Origin: Polychytrium aggregatum
Taxonomy: Eukaryota; Chytridiomycota; Chytridiomycetes; Polychytriales
Direction of reading: 5' to 3'
DNA length: 64,000 nucleotides
Assembly (NCBI RefSeq): GCF_025602895.1
Contig: NW_026516205.1
Location: 930,001-994,000 of the forward strand
Part shown: piece by piece, positions 26,854-41,600 of the stretch
Layout: each line of letters starts with the position of its first letter
How positions within the stretch are numbered: position 1 is the stretch's first letter
Position numbers and translations under genes: made by a program
Notes under the pieces: model-generated
What the model was told of the DNA's origin: nothing
Databases searched by the model: none
The model's input: the letters and a program-made list of their open reading frames with translations, nothing else

Positions 26854-26887
26854 GGCAGCAGCGGATGCAAGCGCAAGTGAGAATGCC

Positions 26888-26929
26888 AGTGCAAGTGCAA
26901 GTGCAAGTGCAAGTGCAAGTGCAAGTGCA
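26888..26929. repeat. (AGTGCA)7 hexanucleotide tract in a divergent promoter
   Basis: Seven perfect copies lie in the 309-bp gap between the MCUR1-like start (26853, minus) and the ligase start (27163, plus). The tract is flanked on both sides by GTGAGAATGC. Confidence 0.9.
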
Positions 26930-27162
26930 AGTGAGAATGCGGGCGAGAGGCTGGTGTTGCCGTTGCAGACAAGCCAGGCAGGTGCGCAGCAGTGTGGCTG
27001 TGGCGATGCATGTGGCGGCGGAGTGATTGTTTGGCTTTGCCAAAGCTGCTTTGGAGCCCGAGGCATACAAAAGGAATCCACCACCAGCGACACCCATCCG
27101 CCGCATTCACCAGCACTCATCAGCACCGCATCTCCTCTTTGCCTCGCTCCGCTGCGTCCGAC

Positions 27163-28962
27163 ATGTCTGCTCCTGCCGTGCCCTGCAAGTACGGCGCCAG
27201 CTGCTACCGACAAAAGAACCCTGCCCACTCGCAGCAGTACAGCCATCCGTCCCCTGCAGCCCCTGTCTCGACCCCGCCGTTGCCGCAAGCCCAAGATTCG
27301 GCTCCCTCGGCCGCTCCGTCGGCTTCTCTGTCAGCGGCGACTGCTGTGACTACTGCGACCGCTGCGACTGCTGCGACCCCCAAGCCCCCGGCTGCACTTG
27401 TCCCTGACAGTACGCTTGTCGATGACAACGACCCTGACACCGATAAGGATTCCAGCGACGCCGAGGACGGCTCTCCCGATGTCAACCGCCCGTCGACACA
27501 AACCTCGATCAACGACGACCCCGACACAGGCGGGGCTGCTGCTGCCTCGGTCAATTCCACCGCCTCCCACGCCCCGGATACTGGCGCTGCACCTGTGTCC
27601 GCTGGTGCTCCGGCACTGCCGCCGTGCATATACGGCACAACTTGCTATCGGCAATCCAACCCTCGCCACACGGCACAGTACTCGCACTCGGCTGGACCAA
27701 CTCCACCTGTGGCTCCGCTGAAGCACAAGCAACTTTCATCGACCTCCAAGTCTGGCTCAGGCGCCAGCAGCGACGACAACGACGACAACAAGGGCACCAG
27801 GAGGAGCAGCAGGAAACGGCCTGCAAACGACACCGATAACGACGACGACGACGACGATAAAGACGAGGACGCCGACGCCGACGCCGACGATGATGACGAG
27901 GCTCAGATTATCGTCACAACCAAAAAGTCCAAGAAGCCCCGGATCGTCCAGCTCGGCTCCTTCGACGACATCTTTGACCCGGCAACTTCAACTGCCAGCT
28001 CGTCCTCAACACGCAGCTCCCACCTCATCAACCCATCCATGTCTGCAGCGATCGTCGGCGAGAAGAGTGTCCCCGGCTTTCTCCTTGCCAAGAGCTGGAA
28101 TCCTGAAAGCGACGACCCCAAGGACTGGTTTATCTCGGAGAAGCTTGATGGTGTCCGGGCCATGTGGAACCCCGTGAAGAAATCCTTCTACACACGACTC
28201 GGCAACCCGCTCTCGGCCCCGCGCTGGTTCACCAAGGATCTGCCCAACTTTTTCCTGGACGGCGAGCTGTTCTCGGGCCGCAGCCAGTTTGCCCAAACGG
28301 TCTCCATTGTGCGGTCCCAGGACTCGCCGCACTGGGATAAGATTGTGTACCATTGCTTCGATGCCCCCAACCTCAGCGACAAGGTCTTTGAAGATCGCCT
28401 CGCCGAGGCCCAGAAGTACTTTGCCGCCAAGCCCGTTTCCCATGTCAAGATTGTCCGCCATGAGCCGTGCAAGTCTGTGCAGCAGCTCAAGGACATGCTG
28501 GACCAGGTGCTCGACCGCGGCGGCGAGGGACTGATGCTCCGCCAGCCCCAGTCGATGTACGAGGGCCGCCGTTCGCCGACGCTGCTCAAAGTCAAGGCCT
28601 TTTACGAAGCCGAGGCCCGCGTCACTGGCCACCAGCGGGGCACCGGTCGCAACTCCTCCGTCATGGGTGCGCTGATGTGCGTGATGGCTTCGGGTGCGAC
28701 TTTCAAGGTCGGCACGGGCTTTACGGACGCCCAGCGCCGAAACCCGCCCAAGATCGGCTCGATCATCACCTATCGGTTCCAGGAGCTGAGCAAGAGTGGA
28801 AACCCACGCTTTCCGTCGTATGTTGGTGTGCGCATTGACATGACCCAGCCTAAGGATGCCGTCATTCGGCTCACTCGCAAGGACCGTGCGAATGCCGCTG
28901 CCGACGACAAGGACAAGGACAAGGACAAGGACGATGAAGACGGCAAGGATGACAGCAGCTAG
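27163..28962 (+). CDS. PBZ-PBZ-ATP-dependent DNA ligase (LigE-like core)
   Basis: Intronless, 599 residues, with the first ATG in frame. Two poly(ADP-ribose)-binding zinc fingers match the pattern C-x-Y-G-x2-C-Y-R-x4-x-H-x5-H: C8, C14, H22, H28 and C155, C161, H169, H175. A low-complexity linker follows (Ala/Pro/Thr, then Asp-rich) with basic clusters RRSSRKRP (213-220) and KKSKKPR that could be nuclear signals. From about 295 there is a compact covalent nucleotidyltransferase: motif I EKLDGVRA with K327 as adenylation lysine, LDGELFSG (E368), GGEGLMLR (E455), and motif V LLKVKAF (K476, K478). An OB-fold ends with GSIITYRFQEL. The core resembles short bacterial LigE ligases rather than LIG1/3/4: there is no DNA-binding domain, BRCT or PCNA box. 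The tail is Lys/Asp-rich. The likely role is PAR-directed strand-break sealing in the nucleus (inference). Confidence 0.93.
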   Translation: MSAPAVPCKYGASCYRQKNPAHSQQYSHPSPAAPVSTPPLPQAQDSAPSAAPSASLSAATAVTTATAATAATPKPPAALVPDSTLVDDNDPDTDKDSSDAEDGSPDVNRPSTQTSINDDPDTGGAAAASVNSTASHAPDTGAAPVSAGAPALPPCIYGTTCYRQSNPRHTAQYSHSAGPTPPVAPLKHKQLSSTSKSGSGASSDDNDDNKGTRRSSRKRPANDTDNDDDDDDKDEDADADADDDDEAQIIVTTKKSKKPRIVQLGSFDDIFDPATSTASSSSTRSSHLINPSMSAAIVGEKSVPGFLLAKSWNPESDDPKDWFISEKLDGVRAMWNPVKKSFYTRLGNPLSAPRWFTKDLPNFFLDGELFSGRSQFAQTVSIVRSQDSPHWDKIVYHCFDAPNLSDKVFEDRLAEAQKYFAAKPVSHVKIVRHEPCKSVQQLKDMLDQVLDRGGEGLMLRQPQSMYEGRRSPTLLKVKAFYEAEARVTGHQRGTGRNSSVMGALMCVMASGATFKVGTGFTDAQRRNPPKIGSIITYRFQELSKSGNPRFPSYVGVRIDMTQPKDAVIRLTRKDRANAAADDKDKDKDKDDEDGKDDSS

Positions 28963-29626
28963 AGAGCGCGCATGGCACATCGAGTGTGCGTCAATTGTCA
29001 GGGGTACAGGCCGTGCTGACTATGGCCAATCCAATAAAAACGGGACATTCCGGATTTTGGTCGTTGATCAAATATGTTACTGCCTCAGAACATCGTGTGC
29101 TGGCCATGACCACTCAGCGATGCCAGAGAGTGACTGTCCCGTTTCTCCATGAATTGACTGTATACCATGACGTCGACTGCCGCAGCCATCCCCAGCGATT
29201 CGCACGCCTGGGCGTCTGTTTGGGCGGCCAGCGACCCAGGTGTCGGTGGCACTCGAGCGAGGCGCCCGAGATGGACTCGCCACGCCGAGGCCGTCCTCGC
29301 GAGAGCGCACCCCTCGGCAACCAGGGCCTCTCGCCTGCATCAGGCGCTCTCCCACCCCATCTGCCAGACTCGCAGCCGGCTATTCCCAAGAAACGAGAGC
29401 GCCATCCACAAATTCGCATCCTTCCGTGTCCTGTTGCCCGGCTCCTCGGTAGCCCGACTGCGTTTCTCTCGGTAATGGCTGTTGTCTTGATCGCAGCTGG
29501 CCAGACCTTGCCCGTCCATCTTTGTGCTCATCCTCGTCTGTTGCTGCTGCTGCTGCTGCTGCTCCTGCAGGCCTCCAGCCCATCCTCACAGCCCGGGCCA
29601 CACGGCCAGCTCAGAGACACCGCACC
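28963..29626. other. Intergenic region ligase/BEACH gene
   Basis: A 664-bp gap between two plus-strand genes. A poly(A) signal (29033-29038) lies 70 bp past the ligase stop, and a (CTG)n run (about 29550-29571) lies in the expected 5' leader of the next gene. Nothing else was recognised. Confidence 0.6.
29033..29038 (+). terminator. Polyadenylation signal AATAAA of the ligase gene
   Basis: A canonical hexamer about 70 nt after the ligase stop codon, followed by AACGGGACATTC. Confidence 0.55.
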
Positions 29627-32600
29627 ATGAACTGGATCAAGAAAAACGTCTCGTCGCTGCAGGTGCATCTGCGCCGTGCTTCAACCGACTCGCAAGCCAT
29701 GGCCTCGAGCCCCCTCCCGACCGAAAACGAAAAGATTCGGCTCTGCTGCATGCTCCACGGTCAGGAGCCCGACCAGCAGCAGCCTCATGATCACTCCGCA
29801 GCCACCCGTAGCTCTGAGGGTCAAGAATCGTCTGAGCCGACCAAGCGACTGTGGACATCATGGGCCGCGTACAAAAAAATCGTCGACCAGGATGCTGAGA
29901 GCCACGACGCCGACGACAGTGTCATGCAACAGAGCTCCAAACATGCTCGCTCGGACGCTCTCTTCATCTTTATCGATGCCCTCGTTTCGCATCCGGCCAC
30001 GGCATCCGTGGTACTGTATCGGTCTTGTCGTTGGATGCTCTGGCTCGGAGTGGCATCGTCCGCGTTTGGATGGGGCAGTGTCTTCAATGCCGCTTGCACT
30101 ATTGGTGCTGCAGAAGCGGCCAGTCATCCGTCCTCGTGCGGCAGCAACAGCAGCAGCAGCCGACTTTGTCCACTAACGCACTGTCGTCCACGACCTTTCG
30201 GGGCTCTGTTTTTGGCACCCTTCCACCACAATGCCTCAATCAAACTTGTAATGGCAACGCGGGATATGCAATTGTCGGGCATGCTGAACCATTCCCGAAC
30301 TGCACCCGTCGTCTCAATGGCGCATCTGCTCGGGAATCACGGGCCCTGTGGCAATCTTCTCTCAACCTCAATCGCAACACCCAAATTGCATCCCTCTCAT
30401 CCCGGCCATTGTGAACCGATATCTGCCTTGTCTCGCCGGATCCTCGGGACACCAGATCGACCCTGCCTCGGCCACTGATGTGCCAAATCCTTTCGATTCG
30501 CTGCAGTCTGTCGAGGACCTGCCTTCGATCATCCAGTCGCCACCACCGACAGTAATCCAGCCTGTGCCGCTGGCATCAAGCCCCAAGCGGCCCCGCAAGC
30601 TCACCATCGAGACCAACACAGCAACCCTGGTTCCTCCAGAGATTCGCAAGAAACGCGTTTCCAAAGCCCCACCAGCTGTCCCCCCGCTTCCCCAGCCGCA
30701 TGGCACCCTGATTGCTGTTCTGCAGGAGCTGGACATTCTCGTCGAAGCCTTCGATGAGCTCGTCAAGATGGGCAACCCGATGTGGCCATCCAAGCTGCCG
30801 CGCATCAAAGCGGTTGCGCGATGTCTGTCGTTGCTCAGCCGGCCCTTGGCATTCCAGGACTCCCTTTTGCGACATAACGGAATATCGTACATCGCCAGCT
30901 TAGCCGAGTCAATCATATTTCTTCTACTCTCTCGTATCAACCCGGCTGCACCCAACCATCAAAAACTCTGTCGAGTCGAGACCATCAAAGTTCCTCAGAA
31001 CGGCGAAATCGTCCTGGCCAACATCAACCTCCTGCTCGAAGAAATCGCGATGGATCTCTTTGCCACCATCCAGCGCTGTGTGGACTCGGAGCACCGGTGG
31101 CGCCGATACCTCGAGACAGCCAATATCTTCGAGTCGATCAAGGGTGTCTACAGAGGGTCCAAGCACGCGCTCGACTCGGCCTCGGCCACGAAGCTTGCGA
31201 CAGTATGCTTCCGTGTCCTGAGCCCCGAGACCAGGGAGTGCTTCCGACAGAGACCTATCGGATATGCTCTGAGCATACACGCCCTCAACATCGTCGCCAG
31301 CATCATGGTTGGCCGCACGCGTTCGGGGAGGAAGATATTCATGGATCAGGATGGCTGTCAGAAGGTATTGGGGCTCATCGGCTGGCCAAGCTTTATCCTG
31401 CCCATGCTTTTGCCCAATCCAAGCGCCGGGCCGTCACCATCGTCACCATCGTCACCACCGTCACCACCGTCACCACTGTCGCCCCCCTCCACCCCGGCCA
31501 CGCCTCGGCCACACGCTGGCGCCAGTACACCGCCTGTCATTGATTCGCAGGTCCTTCGATCGGAATTCAAGCTGCAGCTTCTCGCTCTCTATGTTTATAA
31601 CTGCTGGATCCACTTGTCTGGATACACACTGGAAGAGATCCATCTCGACGATCGCTACCTGACCGTCATTTCGCAGCTGTTCCAGTGGACCAGCCTTGTT
31701 GCCCATGGCGTTGCCGCGCTCCAGGCCTTTGCCTCCGATGAAACATCCTACGACTGGTTTGCCCAACCCCCTGTCCGTCCGCTTCAGACGGCGCTGCCGT
31801 CCTCACAGACCTGGCCCGAAGCCCACAAGCACACCTTCACCAGCCTGGAGGAGGCCTACTTGAAAGAAGCGGCTGCCATGCCAGTGGAGCCTCCTGCGCG
31901 TCCGCTGTGGGAGCAGGCCCCGCCTCACATCCACCGAGATCTGCCGCAGATTCAATCGATCGAAGTCGATCTGCTCTTCCACACCGTCTATTCTTTCTGT
32001 GTCTGCGATAACGAGCCTATTGTCCTGTCCGTTGCCAGTCCCATCGGCCCAACGGCCAGTGACTCGGAAGGCAAGGTCACCAAACGCTATCCGGCCATCG
32101 AGGTCTTCTTTGCAGCCTTTGCAGCGTGCTTCTCGAATGCTTCCACGACATTCGGCCTCCCAGCACAAAGTCAACTCGAGCAGCTGCGTTTGGTGTCCCT
32201 GAGCATGCAATCCCTTGGCTCCTTGAAGGTCGTGCCCCGCATCCAGATCAAGTTCATTGAGTTCGTCGCCAAGCTGATGTCGTCCGAGCAGCGCAGCGAC
32301 GACGTGGATGAGACCCTTCAGAGCATCACGACCCGTCGCCAGGTCTGCCTCAACGTCATCGAGTCAAACCGCCTCTGGGACTCGCTCTTCTCGGCGCTGT
32401 TTTATCGATGGCAGCCGCCGGCATCCGCAGATGGTAGCATCAAGGGCGAGGATATCTTTAGCCGCGAGCTGCGCTACCTCGTCACCAAGATTGTCCTCTT
32501 TGCTGCCACGATCCCGGGCATCCCCAACGTCAACCTGTGCAGGGTTGTGCTGCGGGTCATATCAGAGCTCCATGCCGCCAGCCTCGATAGCGCGGTGGAT

Positions 32601-35600
32601 ATTATTGATCTGCAGCGACAAATCATCAAGGAGCAGCGGCTTGCCACCCAATCGGCCCTGAAGGAGATACAGTGCCTCGAAATCCTGACGCCGATCCTGC
32701 AGTCAAGCCTGTCAACCGATAGCGCAACGATGTGGCCGCTGTTTGCGCTATACCAATGGATTCTGGTGGCCAACAACGACCAGTGTCTCGCTGTCTACGA
32801 TGACAAGCCCACGCTCAAGGCCATTGTCATGGCCCTCAAGCGCGAGCACGAGGGCATCTCCCGCTTCGGCCTCGAGGCAACACTCTACATTATTCGCGCC
32901 CTGGCGTCGGTACCACCTGCTCGGCATCCCGAAGAGCATCCAACCGCACCGACAGCACACAAATCCCCTCTTGTCGACATGCTCTCCATGTTTTTCGAGT
33001 GCTTTCCTGCCGAGATCCAGACAGAAGCTTGCTACAGACTGCAGATGGCGCTTCTGCGGGGCTTGATGCGCATCGTATCGCTCTTCCCACCAGCCTCCAC
33101 TCGGAGGCGTCGCATCCTCAGGGCGCTCCTGAAAGCACGGGCATTCGAGTATCTCCTTGGCGTCCTGAGTGTCGTCAATCGGATCGATAGCCCAGCCGTG
33201 AACGAGCACAGCGCAATCACTCTGGACCAGCGCTACGACGCCTGCGTGGTTGTGGTCCAGACCCTCACCAACTTCATGAACTCAAGCGATGACTGCAAGA
33301 AGGCGTTCCGTGATATTCTGGGCTATGACGAGCTGCGGGCACGGATTTTTGTGAAGGGAGTGTGCTGCGACTGCGATCGCCTGATTGACTCGTTCATCGC
33401 GATGATGATGGACGACGTCGCTCCGGGAAGCACCTCTCCCCGTCTGAAGGTCATGCAAAACCGAGACGTTGTGGACTTTCTCCTGGGTCTCTTTCCAATC
33501 ATGGGCGAGTTCAGCCGTACTCGAATGCTGGAGCAGTTCATTTTCCTGACCGAGTCTCATGAGATGAACCAGGTCTTGTTCACTCAGCTCGCCCTCGTCC
33601 GAAAGCTTCTCGAGGACGAGACGTTTTTGGCATCCAGCCCTGAACATATGAAGAAGGTCGTCAGGCTCATCGAGAAAGTCGCGCTCCACAGCATCAGCAT
33701 CACCGACACCCGCTTGATCCTGGGTAGTCTACGCCACCACGAACTCCTGGATCTGACTGAGAGCGAAACCAATGCCGGCACGCTCCCGCGGAAGAAGCCG
33801 GCCACCTGGGCGATCGCCTTGGATCGCAAATCGGCCGACGAGCGAACGCACACACTGCCCTCGTGGTACGACGACATGACCCAGGCTTTCCTAAACGTGG
33901 CCCTCAAGAAGGAGGCCGATCTGGACTTTTTCTACTTTGAGGGCCGCGAGAGCGGGATCATTCTGCCCGTGCTGGAGCGGTGGCCCTACAACACCGGATA
34001 TGCTGGGGGCTACACCATCTGCACCTGGTTCAAGATGGATCCGTCGCTTGATACCGAACGAGCCGGCCGGGCTGAGCAGGGCTCTGCTGCACCGCCTGCC
34101 CCCCTCGAGGACGTCGATGCCAAAGTCGAGCCCCGCATCTTCTCGATCCTGAACACCCACGGTAACGGCGTCGAAATCTTTGTCCGGGACAAGGCTCTCT
34201 ACCTCTCCCTGAAGCGTGGCGCCGTCCACACCGTGATTGCCATCCCCGACGTCAAGATTATCACACAAAAGTGGTACTTTGTCGCCATTTCGCACGCAAG
34301 CCCGAAGCTGCTCTGGACCTCGCAAACAGATCTGGTCCTGCTCGTCAATGGCGTCGTGCGCCTCAAAATCAAAGTCGACTTCCCGGATGTCGACAGCTAC
34401 TCGATGTGTCGCATAGGAGCCTCGGCGATGACTTCGGCTGAAGATTTGGCCGCTACCGAGGCGGGTGCTTCAGGCAAGGACAAGAACAAATCCATAAACT
34501 CGTCTCTCGACAGTGTCGCGAGCAACGGACCCCATCTCGATATCAAGGAGTTGATTGACTACACCGGGGCACTCTTTCCTGACAGCTCGCTCGCCCGCAA
34601 CCCCAGGAAGGGAAACGCGGGATCCGACGACTGCTACAACTCCTTCCAGGGCCAGATGACGTCCTTCTATCTCTTTGACGACGCCCTGACGGTACCGCAG
34701 CTGAACTCGATCTATGGCCTTGGTGTGGGTCACTCGTCCCAGTTCCGAGTCGACGACGCCATGTACTACCCGTCGCTTGAAGCGCCGCTGTTTGACGGGA
34801 CGGTGCACGCCAAGTTGTGTCTGCAGTACCATCCGATGGCATCGCAAAGCCAGGCCGTCTGCACGAACGTTGCCCCCAAGGAGCTCTACCGAGACATGGA
34901 TGCACGGCTGCACCGGACGCTTACGTGCTCGACAAAGTGCCTGCGCACGGCCATCCATGTCTTGGGCGGCATCGAGATCCTGCTGCCCCTGATCTTCCAC
35001 TTTGACATGTCCACACTGGAGCAGCGTCAGGGTGAGAGTGACTCGACAACGTCCTTTAGCGCCCAGCGCGTGTCCACGTTCTTCCGCCTGCTCAGCGTCT
35101 TACTCGCCGACGATGCGCTCCATCAAGCGCATTTTCTGTCAATCAAGGGGTCGCAGATCACGTCGATGCTGCTCCAGCAGGTCGACCCCAAGCATCTCAC
35201 CATGTCGACCCTGGATGGAATCATGGATCTCGTCAACTCAGTCTCGGAGAACGAGCAGCTGGCACAGTCGCTGCACGAGTCGTTCGTATTTGAGTTCCGG
35301 TTGTGGGCCTGTGCCTCGTTTTCGGTGCAGCAAGAGTACTTTGAGTTCCTGTTTCAGTACCTATCTGTGCACGCCGATTTCCGCGCAAAGTACGGCGTGG
35401 CCTTCTTCGTGGATGTGCTCGAAAGCTTTTACTGGTATTTACTGCCGGACGTGATCAACACGGACCTCACAAAGCTCCTCAAGGCGCGCTCGACCACAAC
35501 CAACCTCAAGAGTCTCCGGAGCGGCGCCATCCGCATTCTGAAGCACTTTATTGCACAGGGCATCAGCGAAGACGAGGCCTCGCGCATCGTGCGGTCCATC

Positions 35601-38600
35601 TGGACCTGTACCGACGAAGACCATCTCCTGGAGCTGATGGGCGTGGCCATGGAGTTTATGCTCGTGCCGACCAGCGGTCTCTTGGAGAATTTCCTGACTC
35701 ACAACGGCCTCGACTCGCTGCTGCGGCTCTGGATCTCGTGCAAAAAGGAGGCCACGCGGGTGGCCGTCCTGCATCTCCTGTTCGTGATCATCCGCAGCCC
35801 GAACACGGCCGAAAGGTGGAGACGCAAGGCCCGCTTTGATGATCTGGCTCTCACAGGCGCAAGTCTCCACGCCGTTTCCTCCCTCTTCCAGGCGCCAACG
35901 TTCACAACGCCCATGTACCACGCCCTCTTGCAGCTTGCTTTGGAAGAGCCCGTCATCGACTGCAGCAGCGGCGAGTTGATCATGCTCCCGACGGATCTGC
36001 CCGGCAAAGTCCTCAGGAACTCGTTCTATCTGCACACCATCTTCCACCTGCTCGTGAATGCTGAGGCGACTGTTGATCTGCGCAGAGCCGTTCTGGGTGA
36101 TCTGCTGCTGTTGTGCAGCAGCCTGCCATCCAACTCGGAGCGAATTGCGCTTCTCTACGGCTGGCAAAGGTACTTCTTGAACCTGATTCCGGAGTGTCCG
36201 CGACGGGTGCTGACGCTCAAGCGCACCCCCAGCCAGTCGCGCGTCTGGCTCGAAACCTCCGAGAGCACTCAGAGCATCCGCATTTCGCTGGAAGACTCGG
36301 GCTTGACGAAGCTGGCCGAGTCGCCGGAGCAGCTCCAAGCGTATGCATCGCAGCTCACTGACGATCCAGACCAGATGCTCGACATGTCTACTTCGAGCGC
36401 CGCCGTCTCGGCCAGTGCGGTAGGCATGGACGCCGACGAACCCACGACCAACCTGGTGATGCAGCTCATCAGCACCGTCATCAATGATGTTTTTGCAACC
36501 GACAGACGCTCCTGGAAGATGATCGAAGACATCCTTGTCATCATCTGGTCCACCTCCACCAGCATCGACAGCGGCATCTTTGTTGTCCGCCAGTTTTTCC
36601 TGTCGTTTTTCCAGCGTATCCGCAAAGACGTCCATCTTGCTGCATCCTTCAACCTGACCAAGATTGTAAGTTTAGTCGTGCGGGAGGCGGTCGAGTTGAC
36701 GGATCCACGAGTGAGAGCCGCGAGTATCGACAAAACCGGGCCCAGCCACCGCCTGCGCTAACCCGTGTCTGTCTCCAAGGAAAATCTCATCCACACCGTG
36801 ATGCTGTCGGAGGAGATCATGTTCAACCATCAGGACCTCCGCGAGGCTGTCTTGAAGGAGCTGGATGCAATGAGCGCCGACATGACGACACCGTCGGGTA
36901 AGCGCCTGGACGGAATTCGAATTGCACCTGCATAGAATGAGGCCCTTGCTGATAGCAGACCCTGCTATGGATATGCTGTGATCGTCCCCTGGCATCAGAG
37001 CGCTACCAGCCGTCAAACCCAACCGAGGTCATTGTTCGGATGTCGTATCCGCTGGTGGAGTCCAAGCAGCTTGCAAGCGAGTGTCTTTCGCTGTTATCGA
37101 CCATGATCGATCTTCGATTCACGCTGACAGACTTGTCAGAGAAGGTAAGTGCTTTGTAACAAGCATTGCATATGGCCGAATGCGCGTAGGCTGACCAAAG
37201 TACGGGATCGGTGGATTTGTTACAGTCACATTCGCGTAAAAACGGACTCGTGCTGCTCGCCCTCCGGCTGCTCCTCAACGCCCTCAATGTCGCCGACGAA
37301 GATGTTTGGCAGATGGTGATCCATTACATAGTCCCCATCATCGACATGGATACCGTTTTTGCGGACATGGACGACAAACTCAAGCACCGCTGGGTGTTCC
37401 AAATCATCGGTCACATATATGATGCGTTTCAGAGGTGGGTTTGGTTTCCCGAGAAAGCCCCGGGATATTGCCTCGCTTGAACAGCTGTCTGATCGGCCGT
37501 GCATTGTCCGCCACAGAATCCAGGACCCGCCCGCCCAGCGGAGCGATGAACCCGCGGCTCTGCCGTGTGGAGAGACAGAGAAGCTGGACGAAGTTATTCT
37601 CCCGCTGTATATGCTCATTGTGGGACAGTTCCGCGATGCCATCCTCGCGCTCAACAACGCCAAGGGCGAGCGAATCATTACCGAGGAGGCTCTCGACCAG
37701 GCCGAGTCGAGCCAAGAGCGCTTCCTGTCGTTCATAGCATCCCCAGAATGGACGCAGGTCTATGATCTCTACTGCTTCCCGGCAATGAAGACGATTCAGT
37801 CCGAGGACATGGAGATGATCCCACACATGACCCGGCGGATTGCCAAGTCGGTGCGAGTGTTTTTCACCAAGGTGCTCAAGGACGAGAACAGCGGTGCCAA
37901 GACGTACCAGTCCATGGAGAGCTTTTTGTATTCGATCTCCAAGAAGCGCAAAGACGAAGAGACATCGCGGCTGTCGCTGCAGAAGGCCACAGCCGATGCC
38001 GAGCGTCGAGCCTATTCTCGCTCCTGGGCGTTGATTCACCGCGAGCTGACGCAGGAACGCGCCATATGGTATGTGGACGAGGGAAGCTCTGCGCCGCCAC
38101 AGCGATGGAAGCTCGATACTCGCGAGGGCTTTGGCCGGATGCGTCGACGACTTGTGCCCAACTTTGAGTTCGACGACCATCGACTGGCATCGGCCAAACG
38201 GGACAAATCCACAGTTCTTGATCGGGCGAGCCCCTCGCCGCGCATGTCCCGTATCGGCTCGACAACGCCTGGCCGGAAGAAGCAGCAGCAGCTCGAGAAG
38301 ATCAAGAGCCAGCTCGAATCAGGGTATTTGTCCGAAGACATTCTCAAGGAACTCGCTGCATCATCGGCCGAAGCCATGGATGACGAAAGCGAGGACGACG
38401 AGGAGTGGAACGTTTTGAAGGACGAAGATCTGACAATTCAGATGTCGACCTCGACTGCAGACTCGGAGCGCTTCCTGTGCTCGGTGGAGTGCGAAATGAT
38501 TCTGCTGATGACGGCAGTCAAGGGCCGGCTCGAGCTCACGACCAAGAGTCTCGTCTTTTACGCCGACTTCCATAGCACCACTGCTGAGCTGACCGACTAC

Positions 38601-41600
38601 GAAAAAACCGTGCTGATGCTGGTTGAATCCGAAGTGATTCGGGAGCGGCGCTGGCCTGTCCAGAACTTGCGCGAGATGTACCTCCGCCGATATATGCTCC
38701 GTCGGTCGGCGCTGGAGATCTTCTTTGTCGATCAGACGAGCTACCTGTTCAACTTTCCCCAGCTCAAGGACCGGACGCGGCTCTTTTCGAAGATTGTGAG
38801 CATGAGGCTCCCCAAGCTCATAAGCGCCGACGTGCGTAATCCTGCCGAAGCGTTCCGCAAGAGCGACATGACCGAGCGCTGGAGGCGACGCGAGATCTCC
38901 AACTTTGAGTATCTCATGTATTTGAACACTGTGTCAGGTAAGCGATCAGCGAACGACTGCAGCTGGCTCGGCGCCGATCGGGTTGAATCTGCTGCCGGAC
39001 TTGATCTAATGCCGGATTCGGTCTCGACGTCCCCTCCAATCTTGAAGGACGCACGTACAACGATTTGACCCAGTACCCGGTGTTCCCGTGGTAAGATATG
39101 CTCAGACGCCGCTCCGATCTCGGGACGGAAAACAGCCACTCCCCTGCTGGACCAGTTCTGATCACTTCTTTCGCAACTCTGTGGCGGGCGGCACATAGGA
39201 TTCTGCGCGACTATACATCGGACACCATTGACCTCAACGACCCCAACGTCTATCGAGACCTGTCCAAGCCGATTGGCGCCTTGGATCCCACACGCCTTCA
39301 GCAGTATCTCGAGCGTTACTCGTCTTTCGAGGATCCGTCCGGCAAGATCAAAAAGTTCATGTACGGCACACACTACAGTTCCGCGGCAACGACGCTGTAC
39401 TATTTACTGCGAATGGAGCCGTTTACAAGCTTGCACGTCGCCCTCCAAGGCGGAAAGTTTGACCATCCCGACAGGTCAGTAACCTGTGCTGTTTGGGGGC
39501 ATCTTGTCTTTGCAGCCAACTTGGCGGGTACACGATAGAGGCGCATTGGTGAGAAGCAGCTCTCCAAAGCTTGGCCAGGCCACTAACGAGTCCAGTGACT
39601 GCGGCGACTTGCCTGGAATAGGCAGTTCCACTCGCTGGAGCGGTGTTGGAAATTTGTCCTGACAGGCAACGGCGATGTCAAGGAGCTGATTCCGGAATTC
39701 TTCTACCTGCCCGAGTTCCTGATCAACGAGGTAGGTCGGGCCTGGCATCTGGATATCCGGCATACTCAGCTGATCTTCCTTGGTCTTCCCTGATCTTCCC
39801 TGGTCTTACCTGGTCTTACTTGCTCCGCTGACCCCCACCGCCGGGACCTGTGATTGCTTCTCAGAATAAGTTTGACCTGGGTCGCCGCCAGAGCGGCGAG
39901 CATGTCGATGACGTCATTCTCCCACCGTGGGCGTCGTCGGCTGAGGAGTTCATCCGCATCCACCGCGAGGCCCTCGAAGGCGACTACGTCTCCGACAATC
40001 TGCATCTCTGGATTGACCTTATCTGGGGCTATCGCCAGACGGGCGAAGAGGCAGTTAAGGCGCACAATGTATTCTATTACCTCACTTACGAAGGGGCCAT
40101 CAACATCGATTTGGTCAAGGACCCAATCGAGCGAAAGTCAATCGAGGACCAGATCAACAACTTTGGACAGACGCCGTCGCAGCTACTCAAGAAACCCCAC
40201 CCTCCTCGAATGAAGGTCAAGGCTGGGCTACCGCGAGTCAATCTCTACGGAACACTGCAAGGGCATCAGAGCTACCTGATCCAGCTGCGTGGGCTTCAGC
40301 CGCTCCAGTTCGTGCGCATCACGGCAGAGGCTGGATCGAATGCAAACCAAAGTATGTCGATCTCTCCATTCAGCGGCCTTGGCGGTGCAAACCAAGAGCG
40401 CATCATCACGGTCTCCTCGGACTATGTCATCGGAGCACACAAATGGTCTTCGCAGTCGTATGAAAGCTCCGAGTCGCTTACGTTCCCGTTCGAGCCCGAT
40501 GGAACGCCTATCGCCAAGCGGTAAGTTGAGCATGTCCAGCAGACATCCTGCCGGACGACTACTCTTGGACCGGTGTTCTCGTGAAATTCGTTCCGCTGAA
40601 CGGCTTGCCCAGCATTAAGTCCTCCTTTATCATCGGCATCGCCATGTGCACCGGCGCATCTTTGGCAGACGCCTGCCGTCACAGTTCGCCTCCAATCTAC
40701 CCCTGGCGACCAAGAAGCTTACGGCAACGGCGTCTGGCAAGTTCATTTTCTCAGCGGGACACTGGGACTCGTCGTTCCACATCACAGCCGTCGACAGCTT
40801 CAAGACTGTGGCGATCGTATATGGGCACCACGACGTTGTCACCTGCCTGGCGCTCTCGGAAGACGAAAGCATGCTAGCGACCGGCTCGCGGGACACGACA
40901 GTGATCATATGGGATCTGCAGCACTCGCCCGGCGACGGTCTCATCGTCCATCAAGAGAGCCGACGGATCATGTTTGGCCACGAGCAGGAAATAACTGCGG
41001 TCGCGATGAGCATGGAGCACGACCTCGTTGTGAGTGGCTCCAAGGACGGCTCGTGCATCCTTCACACAATCTACGAAAGCCGATACTTGCGCACGCTGCG
41101 TCCGGCAACAGAGCTGCCCGGCGACGCTCTCACGATCCAGAACGTACTTGTTCCCAGCAGGCAGGGCTTCATTGTTGTGATCACGACGATTCAGCCCGGC
41201 AAGCGGACAGGCGTTTCCCCAGGCATGGCCGTCGAGACGAGCAAAATCGCCGGCAACCACAATTCGTCTGGTGTGGAGCTGTACCTGCCCCCGACACCTG
41301 TAACAACAACACACCCGCAGCTCAAGAACCCCGGCGACTCGGCGGCTGGCGGCACCACAGGCAGCTCCTTGGACGATGCGGCCTCTGTGCTTGGACACGA
41401 TCGCATCCGCGCGGCAGCAACAGCGTCGTCTGGGATCCATCTTTACACCGTCAACGGCAAATGCATCCGAAACCGGTACTTCAACAAGCAACTGTTTGAC
41501 TTCCAAGTGTCGACGGATGGGGCATCGATCGTCATGGCTGACAGCCTTGGCCGGATTTCTGTTATGAAGACCCATAGGTAGGTGGCGAGTCCCATTCATT

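Follow-up and report, generated by a model that had tools for sequence, protein, structure and literature searches.

The window analyzed here is a 64,000-nucleotide stretch of the Polychytrium aggregatum genome (contig NW_026516205.1, positions 930,001 to 994,000). It carries on its forward strand an uninterrupted gene in which two PBZ zinc fingers and two disordered linkers precede a compact DNA ligase of the Lig E type. The features of this gene, in window coordinates, are the following:

27163 to 28962, + strand: whole gene, PBZ-PBZ-linker-Lig E ligase, a single stop-free frame of 599 amino acids
27181 to 27252, + strand: PBZ finger 1, residues 7-30 (PF10283), with C8, C14, H22 and H28 and with Y10, Y15 and R16 kept
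27253 to 27612, + strand: linker 1, residues 31-150, disordered and S/T/P/A-rich (composition; pLDDT mostly below 50)
27619 to 27687, + strand: PBZ finger 2, with C155, C161, H169 and H175 (PF10283 at positions 957619-957687 of the contig, C223)
27694 to 28062, + strand: linker 2, residues 178-300, disordered, acidic with basic clusters (composition, pLDDT)
28117 to 28596, + strand: ligase nucleotidyltransferase domain, residues 319-478, with catalytic Lys327 (PF01068; motifs)
28639 to 28833, + strand: Lig E-type OB domain, residues 493-557 (PF14743, E = 3.4e-28)
29033 to 29038, + strand: AATAAA, a possible polyadenylation signal 71 bases 3' of the stop
27010 to 27162, + strand: possible basic extension of 51 amino acids at the N-terminus, read in frame from the ATG at 27010, uncertain

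The PBZ model PF10283 matched two stretches of the protein (E = 1.4e-19, 70.1 bits against a Pfam cut-off of 22.7), and the eight zinc ligands named in the initial annotation are all in place. Both fingers, spaced 147 residues apart, conform to the C-x5-C-x7-H-x5-H PBZ pattern with its aromatics and Arg, residues which we take to contact poly(ADP-ribose) (PAR). A chance occurrence was ruled out, since the pattern C.[YF]G..C[YF]R...H.....H matched only at these two sites in the six frames of the window. Finger 1 matched human APLF (2kqb) with E = 1.3e-6 in a phmmer search, and the PAR-contacting aromatics and Arg are named for APLF in PMC6264785. The linkers are of low complexity: S, T, P and A make up 76 of the 120 residues of linker 1, and D plus E account for 26 of the 123 of linker 2. 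In the AlphaFold model the ten-residue mean of the predicted local distance difference test (pLDDT) is below 60 everywhere outside residues 301-560, in agreement with the disordered acidic linker with basic clusters described previously.

The core was matched by PF14743 (97.9 bits against a cut-off of 28) and by PF01068 (E = 2e-11). It passed the NCBIfam DNA-ligase equivalog model PRK09125 (NF006592) with 303.9 bits against a cut-off of 200, whereas it failed the dnl1 model (38.6 bits against 217.8), and the DNA-binding domain PF04675 gave no match at E<=1 in the 599-residue protein. Identity to a fragment of one of the larger ligases of the same genome was 21% over 142 residues. A position inside LIG1/3/4 was ruled out by these family models and this low identity; the comparisons support a Lig E-type ATP-dependent ligase, as had been proposed against LIG3 and LIG4. 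Under the usual motif names, the core contains motifs I (K327-LDG), III (DGEL 366), IIIa (FDAP 399), IV (GEGLMLR 454) and V (LLKVK 474), as expected from its first description as a short ATP-dependent ligase with the catalytic motifs. Three hundred residues with two PBZ fingers stand before the core, which sets the protein apart from the canonical leader-peptide Lig E subgroup (minimal, no added domains). The presence of PBZ and a Lig E core in one protein agrees with the published definition of PBZ-LigE/LigK (PMC6264785, PMC10665377).

The gene was confirmed as real, intact and sensible. A second intact copy on contig C60 differs at 2 of 1800 nucleotides, changing linker residues 31 and 200, and we interpret this copy as the second haplotype. 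Upstream of 27163 the frame stays open back to 26935 and contains one in-frame ATG, at 27010, so that 27163 is the likely rather than the proved translation start. A short tandem array of 'agtgca'-type units lies at 26886-26932, about 230-280 bases 5' of this start. An intron scan found no canonical introns inside the 27163-28962 open reading frame, a feature that the initial annotation had taken as a sign of late transfer or retroposition. At least two PBZ genes are present in the genome. The one found besides the window gene (C101/C376; L034:1580-3010, + strand; C101:321500-326000) has one PBZ finger in an uninterrupted, acidic, low-complexity frame of 477 amino acids with no other Pfam domain. 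Third-position GC is host-like: 0.80 in the ligase core and 0.69 in the PBZ-linker part, against 0.74 in a neighbouring BEACH-family frame. Because the other finger also sits in one long frame, because of the host-like GC, and because Lig E/K occurs in many fungi according to PMC6264785, the intron argument is weak, and lack of introns was dropped as evidence of transfer.

The assembly containing the window comprises 64.7 Mb in 418 contigs, with 13 matches to chitin synthase N-terminal domains, from which we take the host to be fungal. Two gene pairs with PARP catalytic domains and one PARG gene pair make PAR targeting of the ligase plausible. Two further full-size ligases, both matched by DNA_ligase_A_N and A_M, are encoded at C223:1066630-1069530 and as the pair C364/C162. 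LIG3-XRCC1, in which a ligase is brought to PARP-marked breaks, is a functional analogue that differs in ligase family and in recruitment module. It had been suggested that the window gene replaces this route, and the genome leaves that possible and unproved: XRCC1_N had no match, but the same search was silent in the control too, so absence of XRCC1 is not established. The two weak zf-PARP matches (best E = 2.9e-4) fall on C364 and C392, each some 5 kb 5' of a PARP catalytic domain, so that no LIG3-type finger was seen next to a ligase; this does not prove its absence.

Relatives of the core were collected in a prokaryote genome scan with a five-sequence alignment, and the best 80 of 587 were used; proportions of clades among them are biased, since loci were picked by similarity to the window core. 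By our own regular expression, a SWIM-like CxC...CxH finger stands ahead of the core in 62/80 loci. WGR follows the core in 46/80, every one of them also with the finger, and 18/80 have neither feature. Pfam called WGR in 44/80 and SWIM in 2/80 at E<=1 (best 0.034), so the label 'SWIM-like' depends on our own count; among PDB sequences the bacterial finger found only weak, mixed matches. These SWIM-LigE-WGR proteins of Myxococcota, Planctomycetota and other groups have the cores closest to that of the window among the 80, but carry a SWIM-like finger, and often WGR, where the fungal protein has PBZ; no PBZ was found among 165 relatives. Identity to the window core is 46-53% (median 50%) for the 62 SWIM-bearing loci, whereas 16 leader-type Lig E, including 3 on plasmids, reach 35-44% (median 42%). 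The QELS-type OB motif [YFH][QN]EL[ST] is present in the window core and in 57/62 SWIM loci and is missing from all 16 leader-type ones, although leader-peptide Lig E (8u6x, 6gdr, 4d05) share the core fold and catalytic motifs with the window. Counting hydrophobic leaders does not separate the groups (14/16 leader-type but 16/62 SWIM loci). Viral loci with the SWIM-like finger number 13/80 and those with WGR 1/80, and a viral scan using the core alone returned one distant locus. Viral contigs with Lig E and an N-terminal SWIM-like motif include L129, L134, L144 and, beyond those 13, L038 (LR745208.1). An Obscuribacterales metagenome-assembled genome (MAG) encodes four WGR stretches and a Lig E ligase in one frame (L081:1551-4769, + strand).

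A first tree of 103 rows with a very long outgroup placed the window without resolution beside a fingerless viral-contig row, with a long-branch warning; the nearest rows by path were viral contigs. In a second tree of 83 rows, from which 20 long, partial or near-duplicate rows had been dropped (including the 3 plasmid-borne leader-type ones), 11 leader-type rows split from the window plus the SWIM clade at 100/99. Placement of the window within that clade is weak (93/32), on a long branch of 1.99 changes per column. On this tree the SWIM+WGR label requires 10 changes, so WGR would have been gained or lost repeatedly. By tree and motif, the core falls in with a myxobacterial/planctomycete clade and not among the Lig E with a leader peptide, which are periplasmic; PMC8455567 describes leaderless myxobacterial Lig E clustering with a few, mainly fungal, sequences. 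The bacterial relationship of the core is well supported, and the bacterial kin suggest its source without fixing the donor, the timing or the direction of a transfer. In one member of the bacterial clade (L077) the ligase frame runs on into WGR-PARP. The PARP portion of this protein retains HGS, GIYF and DEYVVY, which we take to be the H-Y-E triad.

With a probability of about 0.72, we propose that the gene product belongs to the eukaryotic PBZ-Lig E enzymes and acts in the nucleus as a repair ligase guided to breaks by PAR. The observed basis consists of the fused frame, the intact finger and ligase motifs, the Lig E family, the predicted fold and the PARP and PARG genes. At a break the fungus's own PARPs would deposit PAR, the two fingers would bind the chains, and the flexible linker would keep the minimal core close to the break and free to reach the nick. 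Lys327 would then take AMP from ATP and the core would seal the nick. A Lig E core by itself has no targeting, which the fingers would provide, and the enzyme, probably nuclear, may act in single-strand-break or excision repair alongside the two full-size ligases. Judging by the bacterial kin, the same principle may operate there through other readers, WGR and the SWIM-like finger. The earlier claim that PBZ brings the ligase to PARP-marked breaks is therefore plausible given the PARP and PARG genes, while the recruitment itself we infer. Several observations weigh against this reading: AlphaFold left the fingers unmodelled (pLDDT below 50, no zinc), the start codon is unsettled between 27010 and 27163, and PARP is not a regular partner of the bacterial SWIM-clade Lig E. 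When PF00644 (the PARP domain) was searched in 50 of the 80 relatives' genomes, it exceeded the cut-off in only 4 of 36 SWIM-clade genomes, that of L077 included, with a match below cut-off in G011, and in 0 of the 14 others.

Among the alternatives, the one that holds up best, though improbable, is that the fingers mainly bind targets other than PAR on breaks, such as histones or partner proteins, together with the disordered linker, and that the ligase joins double-strand breaks with other end-joining factors. The acidic linker 2 would suit this, but the zinc ligands and the PAR-contact aromatics and Arg are complete in both fingers and the genome has PARP and PARG. Still less probable is a mitochondrial ligase. 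Alternative starts give the mitochondrial form of animal LIG3, and here the open frame would allow initiation at 27010, adding a 51-residue leader rich in basic and poor in acidic residues; yet that leader may be just 5' untranslated region, and the PBZ fingers suggest PAR in the nucleus as their target. A decaying or non-functional passenger left by transfer, for which the long core branch might speak, is very improbable because the frame is open in both copies, their sole two differences leave fingers and core unchanged, and 5/5 of the ligase motifs looked for are present.

Most interesting is the bacterial side, which the initial annotation did not mention: there the ligase is joined to break-recognition parts and once to a PARP. 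In the other three PARP-positive genomes, 5/5 scanned PARP frames are WGR-PARP_reg-PARP without a ligase domain. Two such frames lie adjacent in an Archangium MAG (L208, genome G007, that of L055) which also has a SWIM-LigE-WGR ligase. In another genome (L209, genome G006, that of L052) a WGR-PARP frame directly adjoins a macrodomain frame, which suggests a writer-reader/eraser pair. The WGR of PARP2 is described as bridging the gap between DNA ends in PMC8190142, and PMC8567305, a planctomycete proteome study, places WGR on a short Tuwongella ligase. The main texts of the Lig E papers PMC6264785, PMC10665377 and PMC8455567 mention neither WGR nor SWIM, and the word 'ligase' does not appear in the accessible part of the bacterial PARP survey PMC5966428. 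Members of this Lig E clade are thus joined to a variety of modules related to breaks or to PARP, among which PBZ is the eukaryotic version. We suggest only tentatively, and think it rather doubtful, that the clade represents old break-signalling ligases (SWIM-like finger, Lig E and WGR in bacteria, at least once Lig E-WGR-PARP, and PBZ instead in eukaryotes) whose coupling to ADP-ribose predates eukaryotes or arose again independently. This makes it possible to ask directly whether tethering to PAR, or via WGR to nicks, confers repair function on a Lig E core.

The window gene is one more fungal case of a fusion already described in the literature. Its novelty is lower than the initial annotation implied, because PBZ with Lig E has been published (PMC6264785, PMC10665377). 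PMC6264785 describes PBZ-bearing LigK from bdelloids and Mortierella and states that LigK generally bears further domains such as PBZ N-terminally. PMC10665377 renames LigK as LigE and reports PBZ not only from bdelloids but also from Thecamonas, Mortierella and three further animals; for rotifer LigE it describes induction by radiation as well as ligase function. The bdelloid AvLigE-A/B (formerly LigK) share with the window protein the PF01068+PF14743 core, one or two PBZ and a disordered S/T/P-rich region, as far as the same texts describe them, but their core is N-terminal and their fingers C-terminal. The Mortierella verticillata enzyme, also a fungal Lig E with PBZ and reported to be radiation-induced, has its PBZ at the C-terminus, whereas the window gene has two at the N-terminus. 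The three other animal species with PBZ in PMC10665377 can be likened to it, as other eukaryotic N-terminal-PBZ LigE/LigK, by description only. An N-terminal PBZ fungal LigE may already be drawn in the literature; no paper on PBZ with a DNA ligase in chytrids was found in the open-access collection searched. With its N-terminal tandem PBZ, the gene provides a fungal addition to the few PAR-reading Lig E enzymes known so far. According to a 2014 survey (PMC4245714), PBZ 'could not be found' in Fungi; Mortierella has been reported since, and the present genome has its own PBZ genes.

Near the ligase gene, at 30288-36758 and 37332-39065 of the window (+ strand), lies a gene of the neurobeachin/BEACH family that spans two or more open frames. 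The segment 18589-20682 (- strand) encodes IF-2/EF-Tu family domains, probably of an organellar translation initiation factor.
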